Under the pieces are notes generated by a model that did not search any database, had not been told where the DNA came from, and was given only the letters and a program-made list of their open reading frames with translations. This document shows positions 5,789 through 16,344 of a DNA stretch of 64,000 nt, piece by piece; the stretch's first letter is position 1; each line of letters opens with the position of its first letter. Source of the stretch: Clostridium sp. Cult3. Lineage in GTDB: Bacteria; Bacillota; Clostridia; Tissierellales; Tepidimicrobiaceae. Both the position numbers and the translations under genes were made by a program. The stretch is from NCBI RefSeq assembly GCF_021655115.1, contig NZ_PPXY01000034.1, positions 1 through 64,000 of the forward strand. The letters run 5' to 3'.

Positions 5789-5838
5789 ACAAGAGGGGCG
5801 GATCCTTTGCTCATGAAAAAGATCCGCCTCTAGTGTAC
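5789..5838. repeat. Hairpin repeat H1 (copy 1), probable terminator
   Basis: A stem built from AGAGGGGCGGATC and GATCCGCCTCT around a loop containing GCTCATGA begins 6 bp after the flavin-reductase stop. Nearly the same 48-bp unit recurs at 10082-10129 after the M20 peptidase gene. The two copies therefore bracket the MerR/DUF5058/M20 block. Confidence 0.75.
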
Positions 5839-5856: not shown

Positions 5857-7092
5857 ATGAGAATGGGGGAATTTTCTAGAAAGCACAATATACCTAAATC
5901 CACGGTGAGGTACTATATCGATTTAGGTTTGATTGCTCCTAACAAGGTGAATTCACAATACATATTTGATGAAATGTGTTCCAAAAACTTAGGGACAATT
6001 AAGAAACTAAAGGATCTAGATTTTAGTTTAGATGAAATAAGCGATATTCTGTCCTTTATGCTGTTGAGCGAGGTTGAAGATTCAATATATGTGGATTATT
6101 TTACTAAAGTATATTCTAAAAAGAAAGATGAACTTATAGAAGAAAAAATCAATATAGAAGAGAAGCTCAAGGCTATTGAAAAAGAAATGGAAAGATTGAA
6201 AACCATAGAGAAGGATGATAATGAGAAAATAGGAGTTCCCTTGAGTTTTATACCTTATCTATATTGTCCTAAGTGCAAATCGGAAGTAACGGTGAATAGC
6301 AACAATGTGAAAGACAATATGATAATGGAAGGAGAAATAAAGTGTTCCTGTGGCTTTACTATGGAGATATATGAAGGGGTAATTATCGTAGATGAGAGTT
6401 TAAAAAGTAGATTGGACTTAGATGTAGACTTAGACAAATTCCAATTGAATTATATCGGTAAAACCGATAGGGAATTTATAAAGCTTATATATGAAGCATC
6501 CAATTGGATTGCAAAGAAAATAGATTTAAAATCCCTTTCAAATAAAATAATCATGAAGAATAATACAGGTACAGGAATGTTTATTAGAAAGTATTGTGAA
6601 CTATTGCCTAAGGATTGTTATTATATAGCAGTGGACAACAAATTGGATTTTTTAAGGTATACCAAGGAAGTATTGGAGAAAAAATCAGAAAGGCCTAAGA
6701 TTATTTTTATATGTACTGAATTTGATGATATGCCTATAAAGGATAATATCATAGATATAATTATCGATAAGACCAATGGTTCATTTTATGATATTGATAA
6801 AGTAGCCTTTGTAATGGATATGCTATGTGATAAGTTGAAGGATAAAGGCAAGTGGTTGGGAACCTATCTATACTTTCCCCATGGGAAATATCCAAAGAAA
6901 ATGGAAGAGAAGTATTTTAAGTATTTCGATATAGACAATCTAAAAGGAGTTTTTAATAAAAATTATAAGGAAATAGACACAATGGAATATGCTCCCTTCC
7001 GTATGAAAATTGGTGAATATGGCTCCTTTTTAGAAAAGGGAGATATAGTATACCAATGGACTTACTATGGGGAGAAGAATCCAAAAACCTAA
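5857..7092 (+). CDS. MerR-family regulator fused to zinc ribbon and methyltransferase-like domain
   Basis: The 411-residue product starts with a MerR DNA-binding domain (residues 1-70: FSRKHNIPKSTVRYYIDLGL, then KLKDLDFSLDEISDIL) and a dimerisation coiled coil at about 85-130. A zinc ribbon follows (CPKC at 137-140 and a CSC pair near 165-167). The rest, about 190-400, looks like a Rossmann methyltransferase, with NNTGTGMF at motif I, an acidic residue in YIAVDNKLDF and FDDMPIKDNIIDIIID after it. The ribbon-plus-methyltransferase order recalls RlmA-type rRNA methyltransferases. ATG 5857 is chosen for its GGGGGG site. As effector domain the C-terminus could bind SAM or a ligand rather than catalyse. 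The adjacent MerR-type promoter suggests it controls the next operon. Confidence 0.85.
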   Translation: MRMGEFSRKHNIPKSTVRYYIDLGLIAPNKVNSQYIFDEMCSKNLGTIKKLKDLDFSLDEISDILSFMLLSEVEDSIYVDYFTKVYSKKKDELIEEKINIEEKLKAIEKEMERLKTIEKDDNEKIGVPLSFIPYLYCPKCKSEVTVNSNNVKDNMIMEGEIKCSCGFTMEIYEGVIIVDESLKSRLDLDVDLDKFQLNYIGKTDREFIKLIYEASNWIAKKIDLKSLSNKIIMKNNTGTGMFIRKYCELLPKDCYYIAVDNKLDFLRYTKEVLEKKSERPKIIFICTEFDDMPIKDNIIDIIIDKTNGSFYDIDKVAFVMDMLCDKLKDKGKWLGTYLYFPHGKYPKKMEEKYFKYFDIDNLKGVFNKNYKEIDTMEYAPFRMKIGEYGSFLEKGDIVYQWTYYGEKNPKT

Positions 7093-7119
7093 AGTCGACT
7101 TTAGGTTTTTGGATTTTTT
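7081..7119 (+). terminator. Rho-independent terminator
   Basis: CCAAAAACCTAAA and its complement flank a GTCGAC loop and are followed by ATTTTTT. The left arm overlaps the MerR-fusion stop codon. It separates the regulator from the operon that follows. Confidence 0.85.
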
Positions 7120-7144: not shown

Positions 7145-7175
7145 TTGACCTAAAGTGAACTTCAACAGTTAATAT
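7145..7175 (+). promoter_or_regulatory. MerR-type promoter with 19-bp spacer and central dyad
   Basis: TTGACC (7145-7150) and TAATAT (7170-7175) are 19 bp apart, the abnormal spacing that MerR-family activators correct by distorting DNA. The spacer contains the dyad AAAGT-GA-ACTTC centred between the boxes, exactly where MerR dimers bind. The promoter fires toward the DUF5058 gene and lies about 50 bp after the MerR-fusion gene. Confidence 0.75.
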
Positions 7176-7219: not shown

Positions 7220-7930
7220 GTGGAGGATTATCTGAGTATTGCTAACAGTTCTTTTATCTATGTACTAGGAATTATCATAGTGGTTTTTGTTATGATTCAG
7301 TCATTTATATTTCTTAGAAGGGCTTGGAAAGAAGGATTAAAAATAGGATTAAGTAAAGAAACTATGATAAACGCCATTAAATCCAGTGCTATTTTTTCCA
7401 TAGTTCCATCTTTACCAATAATCATATCATTGATTGCAATGGCACCAGTACTGGGATTGCCTTTCCCATGGATTAGACTTTCCGTAGTGGGTTCAGCACC
7501 TTATGAGCTTCTATCTGCAAATGTAGGAGCCCAAAGCATGGGAATCAAAGGGTTAGGTGGTGCAGGATATACTGCTGAGGTCTTTGCTAACTCCATGTGG
7601 GTCATGAGTTTTGGTATAATCTGGGGGCTTTTGCTAGTAATATTGTTCCTAAAAAAGCTTCAAAGCAAAATGGACAATATAAAGAAAAAGGATTCTCGAT
7701 GGTTAGAGATCCTTATCTCATCTCTATACTTTGGAATGCTTTCAGTATTTATCGGTCAACCGGTTGTTGAAGGTGGAGTCCCGCTAGCAACCATACTTTC
7801 TGGAGCAGCAATAATGACTTTTCTTACCTATATCATAAAACGATTTGAGATTAAATGGTTAAACAACTTTGCCTTAGCAATAAGTATGGTTGGGGCCATG
7901 GCATTGGCTATTCTGTATTCGAATATATAA
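7220..7930 (+). CDS. DUF5058 family membrane protein
   Basis: The 236-residue product is mostly hydrophobic, with about six membrane helices. It has loop signatures seen in DUF5058 proteins (APVLGLPFPWIRLSVVGSAP and GAQSMGIKGLGG). The start is GTG, with GAGGGGG nine bases upstream; nearby ATGs are out of frame. It is the first gene of an operon with a second membrane protein 13 bp downstream and an M20 peptidase after that. DUF5058 has no established function. Two unlike membrane subunits followed by a peptidase suggest a peptide or acylated-amino-acid transporter, which is inference from context. Confidence 0.8.
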   Translation: MEDYLSIANSSFIYVLGIIIVVFVMIQSFIFLRRAWKEGLKIGLSKETMINAIKSSAIFSIVPSLPIIISLIAMAPVLGLPFPWIRLSVVGSAPYELLSANVGAQSMGIKGLGGAGYTAEVFANSMWVMSFGIIWGLLLVILFLKKLQSKMDNIKKKDSRWLEILISSLYFGMLSVFIGQPVVEGGVPLATILSGAAIMTFLTYIIKRFEIKWLNNFALAISMVGAMALAILYSNI

Positions 7931-7943
7931 AGGAGGACTTCTA

Positions 7944-8609
7944 ATGGAAAAAGGGATAAAGATTGTTGATGATTATGACGAGAGGACCCATAGATTAGGC
8001 AGATTAACTGGGATATTAGCTTTAGGTTTGATATTTATGGTTCCAACTCTAGTCTGTATAAAGTTTAATATATTTCCACCTATAAAAAATGTGATTTCTG
8101 GTATTTTGACGATTTGGATGCTAGAGCTACCTATTTGTATAGCTGAGGTATTAACCTACACTCCTATGTTAGGAACAGGGGCTTCCTACTTAGTATTTGT
8201 AACGGGCAACTTAACCAATCTTAAGATTCCTTGTGCAACTATGAGCATGGAAATAGCTGGTGTCAAACCTTCTACAAAGGAGGGAGATATAATATCCACC
8301 ATTTCCGTTGCAGCCTCTTCTATTGTGACAGAAGGAATTATTATAATTGGCCTTATAGCCATAGTACCCTTAACACCAATACTAAGTTCACCAGTATTAG
8401 CACCTGCCTTTGAAAATATCCTTCCTGCTCTATTTGGTGGATTGGGCGCCTATTGGATATTAAAGGGATGGAAATTAGCTGTTACACCCCTTTTGGTAAC
8501 TGTAATCATTTCCCTATTTATCGATGTAGAACCAGGAGCGCTTATACCCGTATGTGGGCTAGTATCCGTCTTAGCAGCTAGATTTATGTATAAAAAGGGA
8601 TGGATATAA
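7944..8609 (+). CDS. Multipass membrane protein, partner of DUF5058 protein
   Basis: The 221-residue product has a short charged cytosolic N-terminus (KIVDDYDERTHRLGRLTG) and then about six membrane segments. These are joined by proline-rich loops such as LTYTPMLGTGASYLVFVTGN and VPLTPILSSPVLAPAFENIL. The ATG at 7944 has AGGAGG seven bases before it; a longer upstream reading would overlap the DUF5058 coding end. I do not recognise a characterised family. Its fixed position after DUF5058, with similar size and topology, suggests that the two form one heteromeric carrier. Confidence 0.75.
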   Translation: MEKGIKIVDDYDERTHRLGRLTGILALGLIFMVPTLVCIKFNIFPPIKNVISGILTIWMLELPICIAEVLTYTPMLGTGASYLVFVTGNLTNLKIPCATMSMEIAGVKPSTKEGDIISTISVAASSIVTEGIIIIGLIAIVPLTPILSSPVLAPAFENILPALFGGLGAYWILKGWKLAVTPLLVTVIISLFIDVEPGALIPVCGLVSVLAARFMYKKGWI

Positions 8610-8627
8610 TATTGGAGGTGAATTAAT

Positions 8628-10079
8628 ATGGGTTTAAAACTTGTAATTACAGGGATATTCGTTTTAATTATCATAGTTATCATAAGGGCTTTGATGTTAA
8701 AACCAAAGAAAGCTTCTATAAGAGAGAAGGCTCAAATAGATATAGATGTACAAGGAGCAGCAGAAAAGCTATCTGAAATGGTCAAATGCAAGACCATATC
8801 ATCAAGAGATCCATCAAAGACAGACTATAATGAGTTTAAAAAACTACAGGATTATATGGATAGTGCCTTCCCTCTAGTCCACTTGAATCTAAAAAAGGAA
8901 ACCGTAAATGGTTATGGACTCCTTTATACTTGGAAGGGCAAAGAAGAAGGGAAAAAACCTATACTATTAATGTCCCATATGGACGTGGTAGCCATAGAAG
9001 ATGGAACGGAAAAGGATTGGGAATACCCTCCCTTTAGTGGAGCCATAGAGGAAGGCTTCGTTTGGGGCAGAGGTACTTTGGATATAAAGATACAAGTCCT
9101 TTCAATTCTGGAAGCGGTGGAAACCCTTCTTAAAGAAGGCTATGAACCGGATAGGGATATATACCTAGCCTTTGGATTTGATGAGGAAGTAGGTGGATAC
9201 CAAGGTTCCACCTATATTGCTCAATTGTTAAAAGAAAGAAATATAGAATTTGATTTCGTATTAGACGAAGGCGGCTGTGTAACGGAAGGAGGGATAGAAG
9301 GCATATTCAAGCCAATAGCTGTCGTAGGGATTGGTGAGAAGGGATATGCAGATATAGAATTTGTAGCAGAAAGTGGTGGCGGTCATGCATCTATGCCTCC
9401 TAGGCATACAGCTGTAGGGGAGATAAGTAGGGCTATAGTAGATTTGGAAAAAAGGCCCATGAAAACAAAGATAACGGAACCAGTAAAGGAAATGCTTAGG
9501 TATGTAGGACCAGAGATGAGCTTTTTAAACAGGATAATCATTGGAAATCTATGGCTGTTTGGAGGAATATTTAAAAAGATATTTGCAGCTAATTCCTCGG
9601 GAAATGCACTATTGAGAACTACTGCAGCCCCAACCATTATCGAAGGTAGTAATTCGCCTAATGTATTAGCCCAAAAAAGCAGAGCAGTTGTAAATTTTAG
9701 GATATTGCCAGGAGAGACGAGCAGTGAATTGATAGAGCATATTGAAAGAACTATACACAACCCAAATATAAAGATTGTTCCTCAGAGAGTAGATGAACCA
9801 TCTAATATATCTAGCACCAGATCCAAGGGATACAAGATAATAGAGGAGACCATATACCAAGTATTTATAGACTCCTTAACCACCCCTTATTTGTCCCTTG
9901 GCAGTACAGATGCTAGGAAATACCAGATCGTCTGTGACAATATATATAGATTTTCTCCCTATCAAATAAGCACAGAAGACCTAAGCCGTATGCATGGAAC
10001 CAACGAGAGAATATCCTTTGATAATATTGAGAAGGGAATAGATTTTTTCATTCAATTGATTATAAACTCAACAAACTAA
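8628..10079 (+). CDS. Membrane-anchored M20 family metallopeptidase
   Basis: The 483-residue product begins with a single membrane helix (residues 4-24) followed by a complete M20 dizinc hydrolase. Zinc ligands are His117, Asp152, Glu187, Asp213 and His456, with catalytic Asp119 and Glu186 (MSHMDVV, GTLDIK, FDEEVGG, LDEGG, RMHGT). A lid/dimerisation domain lies at about 240-370. Overall it resembles PM20D1/carboxypeptidase S-type enzymes, which hydrolyse peptides or N-acyl amino acids. The helix would tether it to the membrane beside the two transport-like proteins encoded just upstream. GGAGGTG precedes the ATG. Substrate unknown. Confidence 0.88.
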   Translation: MGLKLVITGIFVLIIIVIIRALMLKPKKASIREKAQIDIDVQGAAEKLSEMVKCKTISSRDPSKTDYNEFKKLQDYMDSAFPLVHLNLKKETVNGYGLLYTWKGKEEGKKPILLMSHMDVVAIEDGTEKDWEYPPFSGAIEEGFVWGRGTLDIKIQVLSILEAVETLLKEGYEPDRDIYLAFGFDEEVGGYQGSTYIAQLLKERNIEFDFVLDEGGCVTEGGIEGIFKPIAVVGIGEKGYADIEFVAESGGGHASMPPRHTAVGEISRAIVDLEKRPMKTKITEPVKEMLRYVGPEMSFLNRIIIGNLWLFGGIFKKIFAANSSGNALLRTTAAPTIIEGSNSPNVLAQKSRAVVNFRILPGETSSELIEHIERTIHNPNIKIVPQRVDEPSNISSTRSKGYKIIEETIYQVFIDSLTTPYLSLGSTDARKYQIVCDNIYRFSPYQISTEDLSRMHGTNERISFDNIEKGIDFFIQLIINSTN

Positions 10080-10081
10080 TG

Positions 10082-10129
10082 CAAGAGGGGCGGATCTTTT
10101 GCTCATGAAAAAGATCTGCCCCTAGTGTA
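10082..10129. repeat. Hairpin repeat H2 (copy 2), probable terminator
   Basis: GGGGCGGATCTTTT pairs with AAAAGATCTGCCCC across a GCTCATGA loop, 13 of 14 pairs plus one G-U. The unit begins 2 bp after the M20 stop. It differs from H1 at a few stem bases on both arms and keeps the fold. Confidence 0.75.
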
Positions 10130-10330: not shown

Positions 10331-10354
10331 AATTTATTGCAAGAGGAGACGGGT

Positions 10355-12493
10355 ATGAAAACATATAAATTAAAAAATGACACAAAGATATTTGAATACG
10401 GCCATCCCATAGAGACTGGGGCTGTAGTTGAAGCAAAGATAAAAACAAAATTGGAAGAAGATTTATATATTCGATTTGAAGAGGGGCATGCTAAAATTTC
10501 CCTAAAGCTTTTACCAGAGGATGTGGTATTTGGCCTTGGTGGAAATCTAGGGGGAATCAACAAGAGAGGTAGACTATATGAATCCTATTGTACCGACGAA
10601 CCTTTGCATATTGAAGATAGGGCTAAGCTATATGCAGCTCACAATTTTTTTATAATATCAGGAGAGGAAGCCAGGGGATATTTCATCGATTTTCCTAGTA
10701 GGATTAAATACGATGTGGGATATTACGACAAGAATTATCTTAATATTGAAATTTGTGGACAAGATTTTTATATTTACATAATTGAAGGAAAAGATGCAGA
10801 AGAAGTTTCAAGGAAGTTCTTAGAAATAATCGGCAGGTCCTATATTCCGCCTAAATGGGCTTTTGGATACTTTCAAAGCCGATGGGGATATAAGGATAAG
10901 GATGAGGTTAGAAAGGTCTACGAAAACTTTAGGGAGAACGATATCCCATTAGAGGGGATTTTCCTAGATCTAGACTATATGGAGGATTTCAAAGATTTTA
11001 CTATATCGGATGAGAAATTTAGTGGATTTAAGGAATTTGTAGAGGATTTAAAAAGAGATGGCCTATATCTAGTACCTATAATAGACGCTGGTGTGAAGGT
11101 GGAAAAAGGCTACCACATTTACGAGGAAGGCATTGCAGGAGATCATTTCTGCAAAGATGAAGAGGGAAAACCCTATGAAGGGGTAGTATGGCCAGGGAAA
11201 GTCCATTTTCCAGATTTCATGAAGGAAGAAACTCAACTGTGGTTTGGTTCTAAATATAAGATCTTAACGGACTGTGGGATTGAAGGCTTTTGGAATGATA
11301 TGAATGAGCCAGCTATATTTTATGAACCAAAAGCTTTAGATGCAGCCATTCAGTATGCGCAGGAACAAAAGGGCAAGGATTTAGATGTATTTTCCTATTT
11401 TGAATTGAAGGATAATTTTACAAATCTAGCTAACAAGGACTCATACTATAAGAATTTTTATCATGAAATAGATGGAAAAAGATTTTCTAACGACGAAGTT
11501 CACAATCTGTACGGTTATTACATGACTAAATCCGCCAACTTAGGCTTAACAAGATTGTTAAAGGACAAGAGGTTTTTATTAATATCTAGAGCATCTTCCA
11601 TTGGAATGCATAGATATGGCGGCATTTGGACAGGGGACAACTCCTCTTGGTGGTCCCATTTAGAGCAAAATATTAAGATGCTACCGTCCTTAAATATGTG
11701 TGGGTTCTTCTATATAGGTGCAGATACTGGTGGCTTTGGAGGCAATTGCAATGGAGAGCTTTTGACTAGATGGCTACAATTAAGCATATTTACGCCATTG
11801 TTAAGGAATCATTCTGCTATTGGCTGCAACAATCAGGAACCCTATGTTTTTACAGAAGAGGTACTTGAAAATACTAGAAATTTAATCAAGGCAAGATATA
11901 GCCTAATTCCCTATATATATTCAGAATATATGAAGGCTGTAAACAACTATACTTTAATGTTCAAACCTTTATCCTTTGAATTTCAGGGAACTTTAGCTGA
12001 AGAAGCAGAAGACCAAATTCTATTAGGAGATCAGTTAATGCTTGCACCAGTATATGACTCCAATCGTAGAGGAAGATACGTATATTTCCCAGAGGAGATG
12101 CTAGAGGTATCTTTCTTGGAGGAAGATATGACTACGACTATAAGGAAAAAGGGAATTTACTATATAGAATATGGACTGGAAGATTTGAAATTCTTTTTAA
12201 GGAAGAACTCAATCCTTCCTTACGTTAAGCCTTCTAAAAATGTAAAGGAATTGGATCTGAAAAACATAGAGATATTAGCCTATGTAGATGATGAGGCTAT
12301 ATATGAACTATACGACGATGATGGCAAAAGCTATGATTCAAGCTATTCAACTAATATAAATATAGTTAAAAAGACAGAGGATTATGATGTAAAAGTGGAT
12401 AATGACAATCCCTCTATAGAAAATATAAATATTAAAATTATTGACTCTAAAAACAATATCAAACATAAAGAAATTTTGATCAGAGGAGAATAA
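10355..12493 (+). CDS. GH31 alpha-glucosidase
   Basis: The 712-residue product is a glycoside hydrolase family 31 enzyme. The nucleophile is Asp315 in GFWNDMNEPAIF and the acid/base is Asp428 in WTGDNSSWW. The N-terminal beta-sandwich contains FGLGGNLGGINKRG, the catalytic barrel starts near FGYFQSRWGYKDKDE, and the protein ends in beta-sandwich domains. GH31 enzymes release glucose from alpha-linked oligosaccharides. There is no signal peptide, so it acts in the cytosol on imported maltodextrins. The ATG at 10355 follows GAGGAGA; an in-frame TTG six codons earlier is less likely. First gene of the operon, 1 bp before malQ. Confidence 0.93.
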   Translation: MKTYKLKNDTKIFEYGHPIETGAVVEAKIKTKLEEDLYIRFEEGHAKISLKLLPEDVVFGLGGNLGGINKRGRLYESYCTDEPLHIEDRAKLYAAHNFFIISGEEARGYFIDFPSRIKYDVGYYDKNYLNIEICGQDFYIYIIEGKDAEEVSRKFLEIIGRSYIPPKWAFGYFQSRWGYKDKDEVRKVYENFRENDIPLEGIFLDLDYMEDFKDFTISDEKFSGFKEFVEDLKRDGLYLVPIIDAGVKVEKGYHIYEEGIAGDHFCKDEEGKPYEGVVWPGKVHFPDFMKEETQLWFGSKYKILTDCGIEGFWNDMNEPAIFYEPKALDAAIQYAQEQKGKDLDVFSYFELKDNFTNLANKDSYYKNFYHEIDGKRFSNDEVHNLYGYYMTKSANLGLTRLLKDKRFLLISRASSIGMHRYGGIWTGDNSSWWSHLEQNIKMLPSLNMCGFFYIGADTGGFGGNCNGELLTRWLQLSIFTPLLRNHSAIGCNNQEPYVFTEEVLENTRNLIKARYSLIPYIYSEYMKAVNNYTLMFKPLSFEFQGTLAEEAEDQILLGDQLMLAPVYDSNRRGRYVYFPEEMLEVSFLEEDMTTTIRKKGIYYIEYGLEDLKFFLRKNSILPYVKPSKNVKELDLKNIEILAYVDDEAIYELYDDDGKSYDSSYSTNINIVKKTEDYDVKVDNDNPSIENINIKIIDSKNNIKHKEILIRGE

Positions 12494-12494
12494 T

Positions 12495-13976
12495 ATGGCA
12501 AAAAAACGATCAAGCGGAATTTTAATGCATATATCTTCATTGCCTGGTGAATATGGAATTGGAGATTTTGGTAAAGAAGCTTATAAATTTGTTGATTTTT
12601 TAGCAAAAGCAAATCAAAGGAATTGGCAAGTATTGCCTTTGGGAATTACAAGCTTTGGTGACTCCCCCTACCAATCATTTTCTGCCTTTGCTGGGAATCC
12701 CTATTTTATAGATTTAGATGAATTTATTGAAAGGGGATACTTGACCAAAGATGAAATCAACAGTTTTGATTTGGGGAGGGATCCTAGCAGGGTAGACTAT
12801 GGTTTGTTATATAAAAACAAGATGGAGCTTTTGAGAATAGCCTATGGGCGAGCTAAAGACTCTATGAAAGAAGAACTTAATGATTTCTATAGGGACAATA
12901 GGGACTGGCTTAGGGAGTTTGGCCTATTCATGGCTATAAAGGAATACCAGGATAACAGATCCTGGATGCTTTGGGATGAAGAATATAGAAAAATAAATTC
13001 TATAGAAGTACAGGACTTTGAAAAACAAAATGAGGATTCAATTTACTTTTGGGTTTTTACACAGTATTTTTTTACAGAACAATGGATTAGGCTTAAAAAT
13101 TATGCAAATGAAAATGGGATAAATATCATTGGAGATCTACCAATATATGTAGCTGAAGATAGTTCTGATGTATGGGCAAATCCAGAATTATTCAATTTAG
13201 ATGAAAACTTGGTGCCAATAACCATATCTGGTTGTCCTCCCGATGCCTTTTCTATAAAAGGACAGCTTTGGGGAAATCCAATCTATAACTGGGATGCCAT
13301 GGGAAAGGATGAATATAGTTGGTGGATCAAAAGATTTGAATACAGTTTTAAACTATTTGATGTACTTAGAATCGATCATTTTAGGGGGTTTGAGTCCTAT
13401 TGGGAAGTGAAATATGGAGCTGAAGATGCGGTAGATGGACAATGGACTAAGGGACCAGGGATAAAACTATTTAATAAACTCAAAGAGGAATTAGGAGATT
13501 TAAATATAATAGCTGAGGACTTAGGTTTTTTAACAGAAGATGTAAAAAAACTACTTGAGGAATCTGGATTTCCTGGGATGAAGGTATTGCAATTTGCTTT
13601 TGATTCAAGAGAAGAAAGCGATTATCTTCCCCACAATTATGATAAAAATTGTGTAGTATACACTGGTACCCATGATAATTCCACAGTAGTGGGATGGTGT
13701 TCTAGTGCAGATAAAGAAGATGTAAACTATGCAATTGAATACTTAAAACTAGACGTTCATGAGGGGGTGAATTGGGGTTTTATAAGAGGTGCTTGGAGTT
13801 CAACAGCTTACCTAGCTATAAGCACTATGCAAGACCTTCTAGGTTTAGACGATTCAGCTAGAATGAATATTCCTTCTACGGTTGGAGGCAACTGGACCTG
13901 GAGAATGAAAAAGGAAGATATTACAGAGGAGATAACAAAAAAATTAAGGGATTTAACAAGAATTTATAGGAGGTGA
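12495..13976 (+). CDS. malQ: 4-alpha-glucanotransferase (amylomaltase, GH77)
   Basis: The 493-residue product has the short bacterial MalQ architecture. It opens with SSGILMHISSLPGEYGIGDF, followed by QVLPLG and the GH77 core. The nucleophile is Asp294 (VLRIDHFRGF), the acid/base Glu341 (IIAEDLG) and the stabiliser Asp394 (YTGTHDN). It transfers alpha-1,4-glucan chains between maltodextrins, releasing glucose and making longer chains that the phosphorylase downstream can use. GH31 ends 1 bp before it and the phosphorylase begins 4 bp after it, so these three genes are tightly coupled. Confidence 0.95.
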   Translation: MAKKRSSGILMHISSLPGEYGIGDFGKEAYKFVDFLAKANQRNWQVLPLGITSFGDSPYQSFSAFAGNPYFIDLDEFIERGYLTKDEINSFDLGRDPSRVDYGLLYKNKMELLRIAYGRAKDSMKEELNDFYRDNRDWLREFGLFMAIKEYQDNRSWMLWDEEYRKINSIEVQDFEKQNEDSIYFWVFTQYFFTEQWIRLKNYANENGINIIGDLPIYVAEDSSDVWANPELFNLDENLVPITISGCPPDAFSIKGQLWGNPIYNWDAMGKDEYSWWIKRFEYSFKLFDVLRIDHFRGFESYWEVKYGAEDAVDGQWTKGPGIKLFNKLKEELGDLNIIAEDLGFLTEDVKKLLEESGFPGMKVLQFAFDSREESDYLPHNYDKNCVVYTGTHDNSTVVGWCSSADKEDVNYAIEYLKLDVHEGVNWGFIRGAWSSTAYLAISTMQDLLGLDDSARMNIPSTVGGNWTWRMKKEDITEEITKKLRDLTRIYRR

Positions 13977-13980
13977 CCCT

Positions 13981-16344
13981 TTGGAAGATAAGGAAAAAAT
14001 GATGGAAAGAATAGAAGCCTATGCTTTGACTACATTTGGGAAAGATTTTATTTACTGTGATGACAAAGAAAAATATATTGCTCTAGTTAAAGCATTGATG
14101 GAGGATATAATACCTAAATGGAACGCCTCCCTTAAAAAACATGAGGATGAAAAGAAAGCTTATTATCTTTCAGCTGAATACTTGATGGGAAGAGCATTGA
14201 GCAACAATCTAATCAATATGAATATACAATCTGAAGTAAAAGAATTGCTAGAAGAATGGGGCATAGACTACAACCGTATTGAAGAAGCAGAGGAAGATGC
14301 AGGTTTAGGAAATGGTGGTTTAGGAAGATTGGCTGCTTGTTTCTTGGATTCAGCGGCGACTCTAAACTATCCCTTAATGGGATATGGAATCAGGTATGAA
14401 TATGGAATATTTCGCCAAAAGTTTGAAGATGGATTTCAAGTAGAAGAAGGAGATGATTGGCTTAAGCTTGGAGATCCTTGGTCTATAAGAAAGGATAAGG
14501 AAAAAGTTCTAGTGAGTTTTGCAGATGGGGATGTGTTAGCAGTTCCCTATGATACTCCAATTATAGGCTATGGTGGAGGTACCATAAACACCTTAAGACT
14601 ATGGCAAGCAGAGGCCATCGATCCCTTTGATTTAGATGAGTTCAACAAACAGAACTATGATCTATCTGTAAAGGAGAAAAATAAGGCAGAGACCATATCC
14701 AAAGTCCTGTATCCAAATGATACAAAGGATGAAGGGAAGATACTAAGGTTAAAACAACAATACTTCTTTGCTTCTGCTTCCTTACAGGATTTAGTTAAGA
14801 AACATCTAGATAAATACAATACTTTGGATAACTTCCATCAACTACATGCAATACAGCTAAACGATACTCATCCAACGGTGGCTATTCCCGAATTGATGAG
14901 AATTTTAACCAAGGTCTACAATATGGATTGGGATAAATCTTGGAATATAGTAGTCAATACCTTTGCCTATACAAACCATACCATTATGCAAGAAGCACTG
15001 GAGAGGTGGCCTGTAAGGATATTCAAATCCTTGCTACCTGAGATATATGAAATAGTCGAGAAGATAAATAGGAATCTAGTAGAAGAACTTGAAAGAAAGG
15101 GTATCCCCTATGAGGAGATAGAGGAGTTAAAGATAATAGAAAAGGACAACATCAAGATGGCATATCTTGCAATATATGGCACTCACTCCACCAATGGGGT
15201 AGCAAAAGTTCATTCGGATATATTAGCAAAAAGGGAATTGAACAACTGGTACAAAGTATATCCAGAAAGATTTAACAACAAGACCAATGGAATAACCCAG
15301 AGAAGATGGCTACTAAAGGCCAATCCAGAACTATCAGAGTTGATTACAGAGCTGTTGGGCTCAAAGACTTGGATAACCAATCTAGAAGAATTAAAAAGAT
15401 TAGAAAGCTATAAGGATGATGAGGAAGTTCTAAAGAGATTCTTAGACATCAAGCAGACTAAGAAGAATCAGCTAGCTGAATATATAAGGATCCAGGAGGG
15501 CATAGATATAGATCCCTATTCCATATTCGATATTCAGATCAAGAGATTTCACGAGTATAAAAGGCAGCTTTTGAATGCTTTCCATGTACTAGATCTATAC
15601 TATAGGCTCAAAGATAATCCAGACCTGGATATAGTAAATAGAACCTTCATATTTGGAGGAAAAGCAGCACCAGGATATGATAGGGCTAAAGGGATTATAA
15701 AGTATATAAACGAAATCAAAGAACTGATAAACAACGACAAGGATATAGATGGGAAGATCAAAGTAGTATTTGTAACTAACTATGGAGTTTCCTATGGGGA
15801 AAAGCTTTTTTCTGCAGCTGATATATCAGAACAGATTTCTACTGCTGGAAAAGAAGCTTCAGGTACTGGAAATATGAAGTTTATGTTAAATGGCACTCCT
15901 ACCATTGGAACATTAGATGGAGCAAATATCGAAATAGTAGAAGAAGCAGGAGAGGAGAACAATTTCATATTTGGATTAAAGGTTGAGGATATTGAAAGAA
16001 TAAAATCCACCTATGATCCGAAGGAATACTATGAGAAAACAGAAGGGCTTAAAAGAGTAGTAGATTCCCTAGTAGATGGAAGCTTTGGAGATGGAGGTAA
16101 TGGCATATTTAAAGAGCTTCATGATTCTATATTGAAGGGTGCATCATGGCATAGACCCGATGCATATTATCTGATGAAGGATTTTGATAGCTATAGGAAA
16201 GCTCAGCAAAGGGTTAATGACGCCTATATGGATAGAATATCCTGGGCACAAAAATGTTGGGTAAACATGGCCAATGCCGGTAGATTTAGTTCTGATAGAA
16301 CTATAGAGCAATATGCTAAAGAAATATGGGGTATTGGGAATTAG
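13981..16344 (+). CDS. Glycogen/maltodextrin phosphorylase (GT35)
   Basis: The 787-residue product is a full-length alpha-glucan phosphorylase. It has YYLSAEYLMGRAL, GLGNGGLGRLAACFLDSAAT and the pyridoxal-phosphate Lys633 in SGTGNMKFMLNG. It converts alpha-1,4-glucans and phosphate to glucose-1-phosphate. The start is TTG, supported by AGGAGGTGA seven bases upstream; the next ATG lies seven codons in. Location in the mal operon suggests maltodextrin rather than storage glycogen as main substrate, although the enzyme could act on both. Confidence 0.95.
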   Translation: MEDKEKMMERIEAYALTTFGKDFIYCDDKEKYIALVKALMEDIIPKWNASLKKHEDEKKAYYLSAEYLMGRALSNNLINMNIQSEVKELLEEWGIDYNRIEEAEEDAGLGNGGLGRLAACFLDSAATLNYPLMGYGIRYEYGIFRQKFEDGFQVEEGDDWLKLGDPWSIRKDKEKVLVSFADGDVLAVPYDTPIIGYGGGTINTLRLWQAEAIDPFDLDEFNKQNYDLSVKEKNKAETISKVLYPNDTKDEGKILRLKQQYFFASASLQDLVKKHLDKYNTLDNFHQLHAIQLNDTHPTVAIPELMRILTKVYNMDWDKSWNIVVNTFAYTNHTIMQEALERWPVRIFKSLLPEIYEIVEKINRNLVEELERKGIPYEEIEELKIIEKDNIKMAYLAIYGTHSTNGVAKVHSDILAKRELNNWYKVYPERFNNKTNGITQRRWLLKANPELSELITELLGSKTWITNLEELKRLESYKDDEEVLKRFLDIKQTKKNQLAEYIRIQEGIDIDPYSIFDIQIKRFHEYKRQLLNAFHVLDLYYRLKDNPDLDIVNRTFIFGGKAAPGYDRAKGIIKYINEIKELINNDKDIDGKIKVVFVTNYGVSYGEKLFSAADISEQISTAGKEASGTGNMKFMLNGTPTIGTLDGANIEIVEEAGEENNFIFGLKVEDIERIKSTYDPKEYYEKTEGLKRVVDSLVDGSFGDGGNGIFKELHDSILKGASWHRPDAYYLMKDFDSYRKAQQRVNDAYMDRISWAQKCWVNMANAGRFSSDRTIEQYAKEIWGIGN

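Follow-up and report, generated by a model that had tools for sequence, protein, structure and literature searches.

A DUF5058 membrane protein and its obligate partner beside interchangeable amide hydrolases: a putative two-gene carrier for amide-capped amino acids

What do two different multipass membrane proteins do when their genes lie directly ahead of a gene for a membrane-anchored M20 peptidase? The question is raised by a locus of Clostridium sp. Cult3 in a 64,000-nt stretch of contig NZ_PPXY01000034.1, hereafter called the window. A sequence-only reading had proposed a two-subunit carrier that hands a peptide or an N-acyl amino acid to a tethered hydrolase, with the three genes under one predicted inducible promoter. 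The features of the locus are as follows.

5857..7092, + strand: MerR-family HTH protein, upstream (Pfam MerR_1, E = 2e-12); Zn-ribbon and methyltransferase-like C-terminal part
7075..7118, + strand: terminator-like hairpin 3' of the MerR-family gene; contains the perfect palindrome CCTAAAGTCGACTTTAGG
7145..7175, + strand: candidate MerR-type promoter TTGACC-19 bp-TAATAT; near-palindrome CCTAAAGTgaACTTCA (7149-7164) in the spacer
7220..7930, + strand: DUF5058 (membrane protein A); GTG start; 236 aa; about 6 spans; predicted N-out/C-out from hydropathy and charge bias; PF16481, E = 2e-72
7944..8609, + strand: membrane protein B (unnamed partner); 221 aa; about 6 spans; predicted N-in/C-in; no Pfam/NCBIfam family
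8628..10079, + strand: PM20D1/PRK08262-like M20 hydrolase; 483 aa; N-terminal anchor at residues 5-23; catalytic domain predicted cytoplasmic
10086..10123, + strand: terminator-like hairpin at the operon end

The three genes had been read as two multipass proteins of similar size and an anchored M20 enzyme. They proved to be real, intact (236, 221 and 483 aa) and closely spaced: 13 nt separate the first from the second and 18 nt the second from the third, and every gene of the operon has its own Shine-Dalgarno sequence. The product of the first gene matched PF16481 with 243.8 bits over positions 1-222 of the 222 in the profile, above the curated Pfam cut-off. The start of B is best taken as the ATG at 7944, with AAGGAGG upstream, and its product carries a conserved loop, LGxxGxYxxFxTGNxxNLKxP. 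B gave no credible match in Pfam or NCBIfam, and 14 of its relatives likewise matched no Pfam family. Downstream of the terminator-like hairpin that closes the module lies a block resembling a glycogen/maltodextrin degradation operon (10337-16344), in which alpha-glucosidase, 4-alpha-glucanotransferase and glycogen phosphorylase genes were recognized by eye.

We searched 291 genomes of the window's class, a 398-genome phylum sample, two named relatives, and haloarchaeal and Micrococcaceae plasmid records; 61 pairs were collected, from bacteria and haloarchaea. DUF5058 was found above cut-off in 27 of the 291 class genomes, and an independent search with a partner profile recovered an intact B in exactly those same 27 genomes, while two further class genomes held only broken partner fragments. 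Across all samples, B lay directly after DUF5058 in every locus that was not cut by a contig end; on two Micrococcaceae plasmids only part of B was matched. The pairwise distances of A and B correlated with r = 0.93 (61 pairs), and the window's own genome contains a second copy of the pair, approximately 30% identical, on contig C24. A seemingly missing partner at locus L119 turned out to be an ORF-calling artefact, and no confirmable relatives were found on viral contigs. Judged by sequence, A and B are obligate partners, and it is they that make up the constant unit, the hydrolase being interchangeable.

The gene at position +1 belonged to an amide- or peptide-cleaving family in 49 of 59 single-pair loci, compared with 1 of 386 genes lying at least three positions away; the hydrolase query set was taken from the neighbours themselves, which leaves some circularity in the +1 count, and the evidence is therefore not the raw count but this distance control, which reduces the circularity without removing it. 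When either side was considered, a hydrolase adjoined 56 of the 61 pairs, including one whose hydrolase gene an antisense ORF had masked. The enzymes included PM20D1-like M20, M20D like CpsA, M20D like AbgB, carbamoylase-type M20 and ArgE/DapE-type hydrolases, as well as M42 aminopeptidase, S58, N-acyl-D-amino-acid-deacylase-like, Xaa-Pro-dipeptidase-like, C45 and AstE/AspA types; the tethered M20 of the window is one among about ten interchangeable kinds. In a tree built from A and B joined, the type of the neighbouring hydrolase changed at least 16 times, with M20, M42, S58, amidohydrolase, C45 and AstE/AspA folds among those swapped. PM20D1-like M20 loci of the class sample followed a pair in 18 of 30 cases and stood without one in the other 12. 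PucR-type or sigma-54-type regulators adjoin some pairs, as in catabolic operons. These hydrolases have in common that they free amino acids from amides or small peptides, and we regard this as the best evidence for the class of substrate.

No hydrolase was found beside the nearest relative of the window pair (L112, 64% identical) or at three other loci, and a fourth other locus had only a PGA_cap gene beside the pair; an apparent lack of hydrolase at L124 was an ORF-calling artefact. Genes of the PGA_cap family (CapA-like) follow the pair in three genomes, at L035 (6678-8030), L123 and L126 (2840-4180). Two pairs without a hydrolase (L064 and L133) have, by eye, a large LuxR/MalT-like regulator gene directly upstream. 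At L141 and L142 (also L140 and L144), which lie in genomes without DUF5058, PM20D1-like M20 genes were seen by eye in tandem with or near genes for a 10-span EamA/DMT-like protein and an argJ-like product; the EamA/DMT-like protein is possibly a substitute transporter.

The gene-neighbourhood survey that the sequence-only reading had suggested was strongly positive, the families co-occurring far beyond chance. Accidental adjacency, which that reading had named as one way in which it could fail, is rejected by the match in 27 of 27 genomes together with the +1 counts. It had also named a characterised, unrelated function of DUF5058, and none was found: neither 'DUF5058' nor 'PF16481' is named in the open-access papers to which the search was confined.

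The hydrolase of the window (8628-10079) contains M20 and M20_dimer domains (Pfam), and aminoacylase-1 is its best solved relative by sequence. Alignment to aminoacylase-1 gave the metal and catalytic positions as H117, D119, D152, E186, E187, E214 and H456, of which H456 was placed by motif only. The N-terminal anchor and full set of zinc ligands that had been noticed earlier were confirmed, with a hydrophobic segment at residues 5-23 and complete metal ligands. The protein matched the PRK08262 models over their full length with scores below the equivalog cut-offs (462 versus 825 bits for NF006111 and 456 versus 503 bits for NF006113), and by these scores it is related to the equivalogs and is not filed as a member. 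In 24 paired PM20D1-like M20s, no more than one positive residue stands before the anchor, except in two with doubtful upstream starts, and positive residues come after it, often as RALxFKP. By the positive-inside rule, the anchor is therefore predicted to be N-out/C-in and the catalytic domain to face the cytoplasm, which fits import first and hydrolysis afterwards. The anchor was rejected as a hallmark of the module because some M20s without a pair are also anchored. For the window, its family suggests that the PM20D1-like enzyme acts on N-acyl amino acids or on dipeptides with a free carboxylate. What stands of the module as first described is the co-occurrence, the obligate pair, the amide- or peptide-hydrolase neighbours and the predicted cytoplasmic M20; the three-gene unit as such is not conserved, whereas the pair is.

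Averaged hydropathy gave about six spans each for A and B, with the last two spans of B lying in one long hydrophobic stretch that was split by eye, and in both proteins the longest and best conserved loop follows the second span. On this hydropathy-based span assignment, A carries 14.6 K+R in odd loops versus 3.6 in even loops, a bias that held in 60 of 61 sequences, and B carries 0.7 versus 10.6, a bias that held in 61 of 61. With the positive charges of alternate loops in opposite phase, A is predicted to be N-out/C-out and B N-in/C-in, and from this opposite positive-inside bias we infer an antiparallel heteromeric carrier. The idea that A and B are homologous halves was not supported: hhalign returned a collinear match, yet its score of 21.0 was no better than those of matches to unrelated membrane proteins. 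The pair is therefore not filed as a member of an antiparallel paired-gene family, although by its sequence features it may be built like one.

The sequence-only reading had seen no ABC or symporter motif in the membrane pair. Neither A nor B matched a known transporter family in Pfam or a PDB sequence, and neither matched ABG_transport (AbgT) in Pfam at E values up to 1. ABC importer genes (ATPase, binding protein) were found neither in the window operon nor as recurring neighbours of the pairs. The best weak profile match was that of A to Glt_symporter, with a probability of 9.5%, and a link to glutamate symporters or LrgB was retained as no more than a lead; a link to undecaprenyl diphosphatase, raised by weak DUF5058 matches below cut-off of which one was named by eye, was dropped. 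AF2 models built from four sequences reached pLDDT values of 47 and 42, too poor for a fold search.

By genome comparison, the system is real and widely conserved, and the idea of a carrier plus hydrolase gains strong support. We consider it probable that A and B import an amide-capped amino acid or a dipeptide that is cleaved inside the cell by the neighbouring hydrolase. In this mechanism, A (DUF5058) and B would form one heteromeric membrane carrier, probably driven by an ion gradient, that would bring in either a dipeptide or a small amino acid with an amide cap (N-acyl, N-aroyl or N-carbamoyl); the amide would then be cleaved by the adjoining hydrolase, here the M20 on the cytoplasmic face, and the free amino acid would enter catabolism, so that the inward gradient would be maintained. 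In haloarchaea, the pair and an M20D hydrolase lie within approximately 8 kb of glycine-cleavage genes in five of six plasmids, and a TRIC-family gene lies near the pair in four of the six; the one that was tested matches the Pfam family 'Glycine transporter' (PF03458), which mutant phenotypes have linked to glycine use (PMC12173739). N-acylglycine-like substrates are therefore the best guess for the haloarchaeal copies. We put forward more tentatively, as a possibility somewhat less likely than not, a new transporter family in which two distinct subunits of opposite orientation make up a split carrier, its halves being either unrelated or too diverged for their kinship to be recognized, serving general uptake of amide-capped amino acids in bacteria and archaea, with the paired hydrolase revealing the role of each copy.

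The pair could instead be an exchanger or exporter that expels a product of hydrolysis (the free amino acid or the acid set free with it) or trades this product for the amide coming in, with uptake perhaps left to another system. Linkage to a hydrolase gives no direction, product classes are as uniform as substrate classes, and substrate/product antiport is often used by fermenting bacteria; however, no other uptake system is a recurrent neighbour of the pair in the 61 loci, and the haloarchaeal copies adjoin glycine-consuming rather than glycine-exporting genes, and we judge export or exchange to be unlikely. It is quite improbable that A and B are a membrane enzyme, scaffold or sensor working with the hydrolase, for example in docking or substrate sensing. 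No transporter homology was found for the pair, and the M20 of the window is itself membrane-anchored, but among the other +1 hydrolases most are soluble and have unrelated folds, which makes a shared docking surface unlikely, and A and B consist almost entirely of membrane spans with no sizeable soluble domain. A passive block held together by shared mobility or inheritance, without functional link, is very hard to credit: some copies do lie on plasmids, and A and M20 distances correlate (r = 0.92) as for block inheritance, but the replacements of the hydrolase brought in other amide hydrolases while A and B stayed together, and repeated gain of the same activity from different folds is not expected, which already disfavours it.

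The inducible promoter that had been predicted for the operon is plausible. TTGACC (7145) and TAATAT (7170) lie 19 bp apart with CCTAAAGTgaACTTCA between them, next to a MerR-family gene, and a long -35/-10 spacing such as 19 bp is typical of MerR-controlled promoters. A standard sigma-70 scan lists spacers of 16-18 bp only, which places this site outside its range, and the yield of the scan was no better than that of shuffled sequences. Elsewhere in the 64 kb, the motif has an exact match only in the perfect palindrome CCTAAAGTCGACTTTAGG, matched once per strand, which lies within the hairpin that ends the MerR-family gene and shares its half-site with the promoter element. Control by the MerR-family protein is therefore plausible here. 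The presumed operator palindrome (7088-7105) thus sits inside the regulator gene's own terminator hairpin, so binding and termination could interact. The protein itself (5857-7092) would be an unusual regulator, in which one chain combines a MerR-type DNA-binding domain with Zn-ribbon and methyltransferase-like domains; its ORF opens at a GTG at 5833, the ATG at 5857 being the likelier start, and it has distant homologues in six order-level relatives. It is a possible regulator of the operon, peculiar to this organism's copy, and it was rejected as a conserved part of the module because it was not found beside other pairs. Near-identical 40-base imperfect palindromes, AGAGGGGCGGATCYTTTGCTCATGAAAAAGATCYGCCYCT, occur at 5792-5831 and 10084-10123, with paired changes that preserve the stem, and bracket exactly the MerR-family gene and the three-gene module; they may be repeated terminators or the trace of four genes moved as one block.

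With these results, DUF5058, an unstudied Pfam domain, gains an obligate unnamed partner, a testable function and a substrate class. A two-gene carrier that feeds an adjacent hydrolase, if right, would give fermenting Clostridia and haloarchaea a widespread route by which amino acids are taken up in N-acyl, N-carbamoyl and dipeptide form. Its hydrolase in the window resembles PM20D1/PRK08262-type N-acyl amino acid hydrolases in the full-length PRK08262 match and the metal ligands, but PM20D1 is secreted (PMC12395774), whereas the window enzyme is predicted to be anchored and to face the cytoplasm. UPF0126/Gly_transporter (PF03458) is likewise a formerly unknown membrane protein with a link to the catabolism of an amino acid (PMC12173739), but it is an unrelated family, acts alone and has free glycine as its substrate. 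In UPF0016 pairs, charge bias was used to propose antiparallel pairs and function needs both partners (PMC4067407), and SMR pairs are paired-gene antiparallel membrane proteins (PMC9574504). A and B share with both the adjacency of the two genes and the opposite positive-charge bias of their products, and may add a further case of an antiparallel two-gene carrier; the partners in UPF0016 and SMR pairs are clearly homologous, whereas no homology could be demonstrated for A and B. The E. coli abg region encodes the AbgT importer and the AbgA/AbgB p-aminobenzoyl-glutamate hydrolase (PMC5082436). There, as proposed here, an importer gene stands beside M20-type amidase genes whose products cleave an imported N-acyl amino acid, and AbgB-like M20D enzymes occur at several of the pairs described above. 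AbgT is a single polypeptide of the Pfam ABG_transport family, whereas A and B need two genes, match no transporter family and accompany many types of hydrolase, and the repeated exchange of unrelated hydrolases around a constant pair would predict the substrate of each copy.
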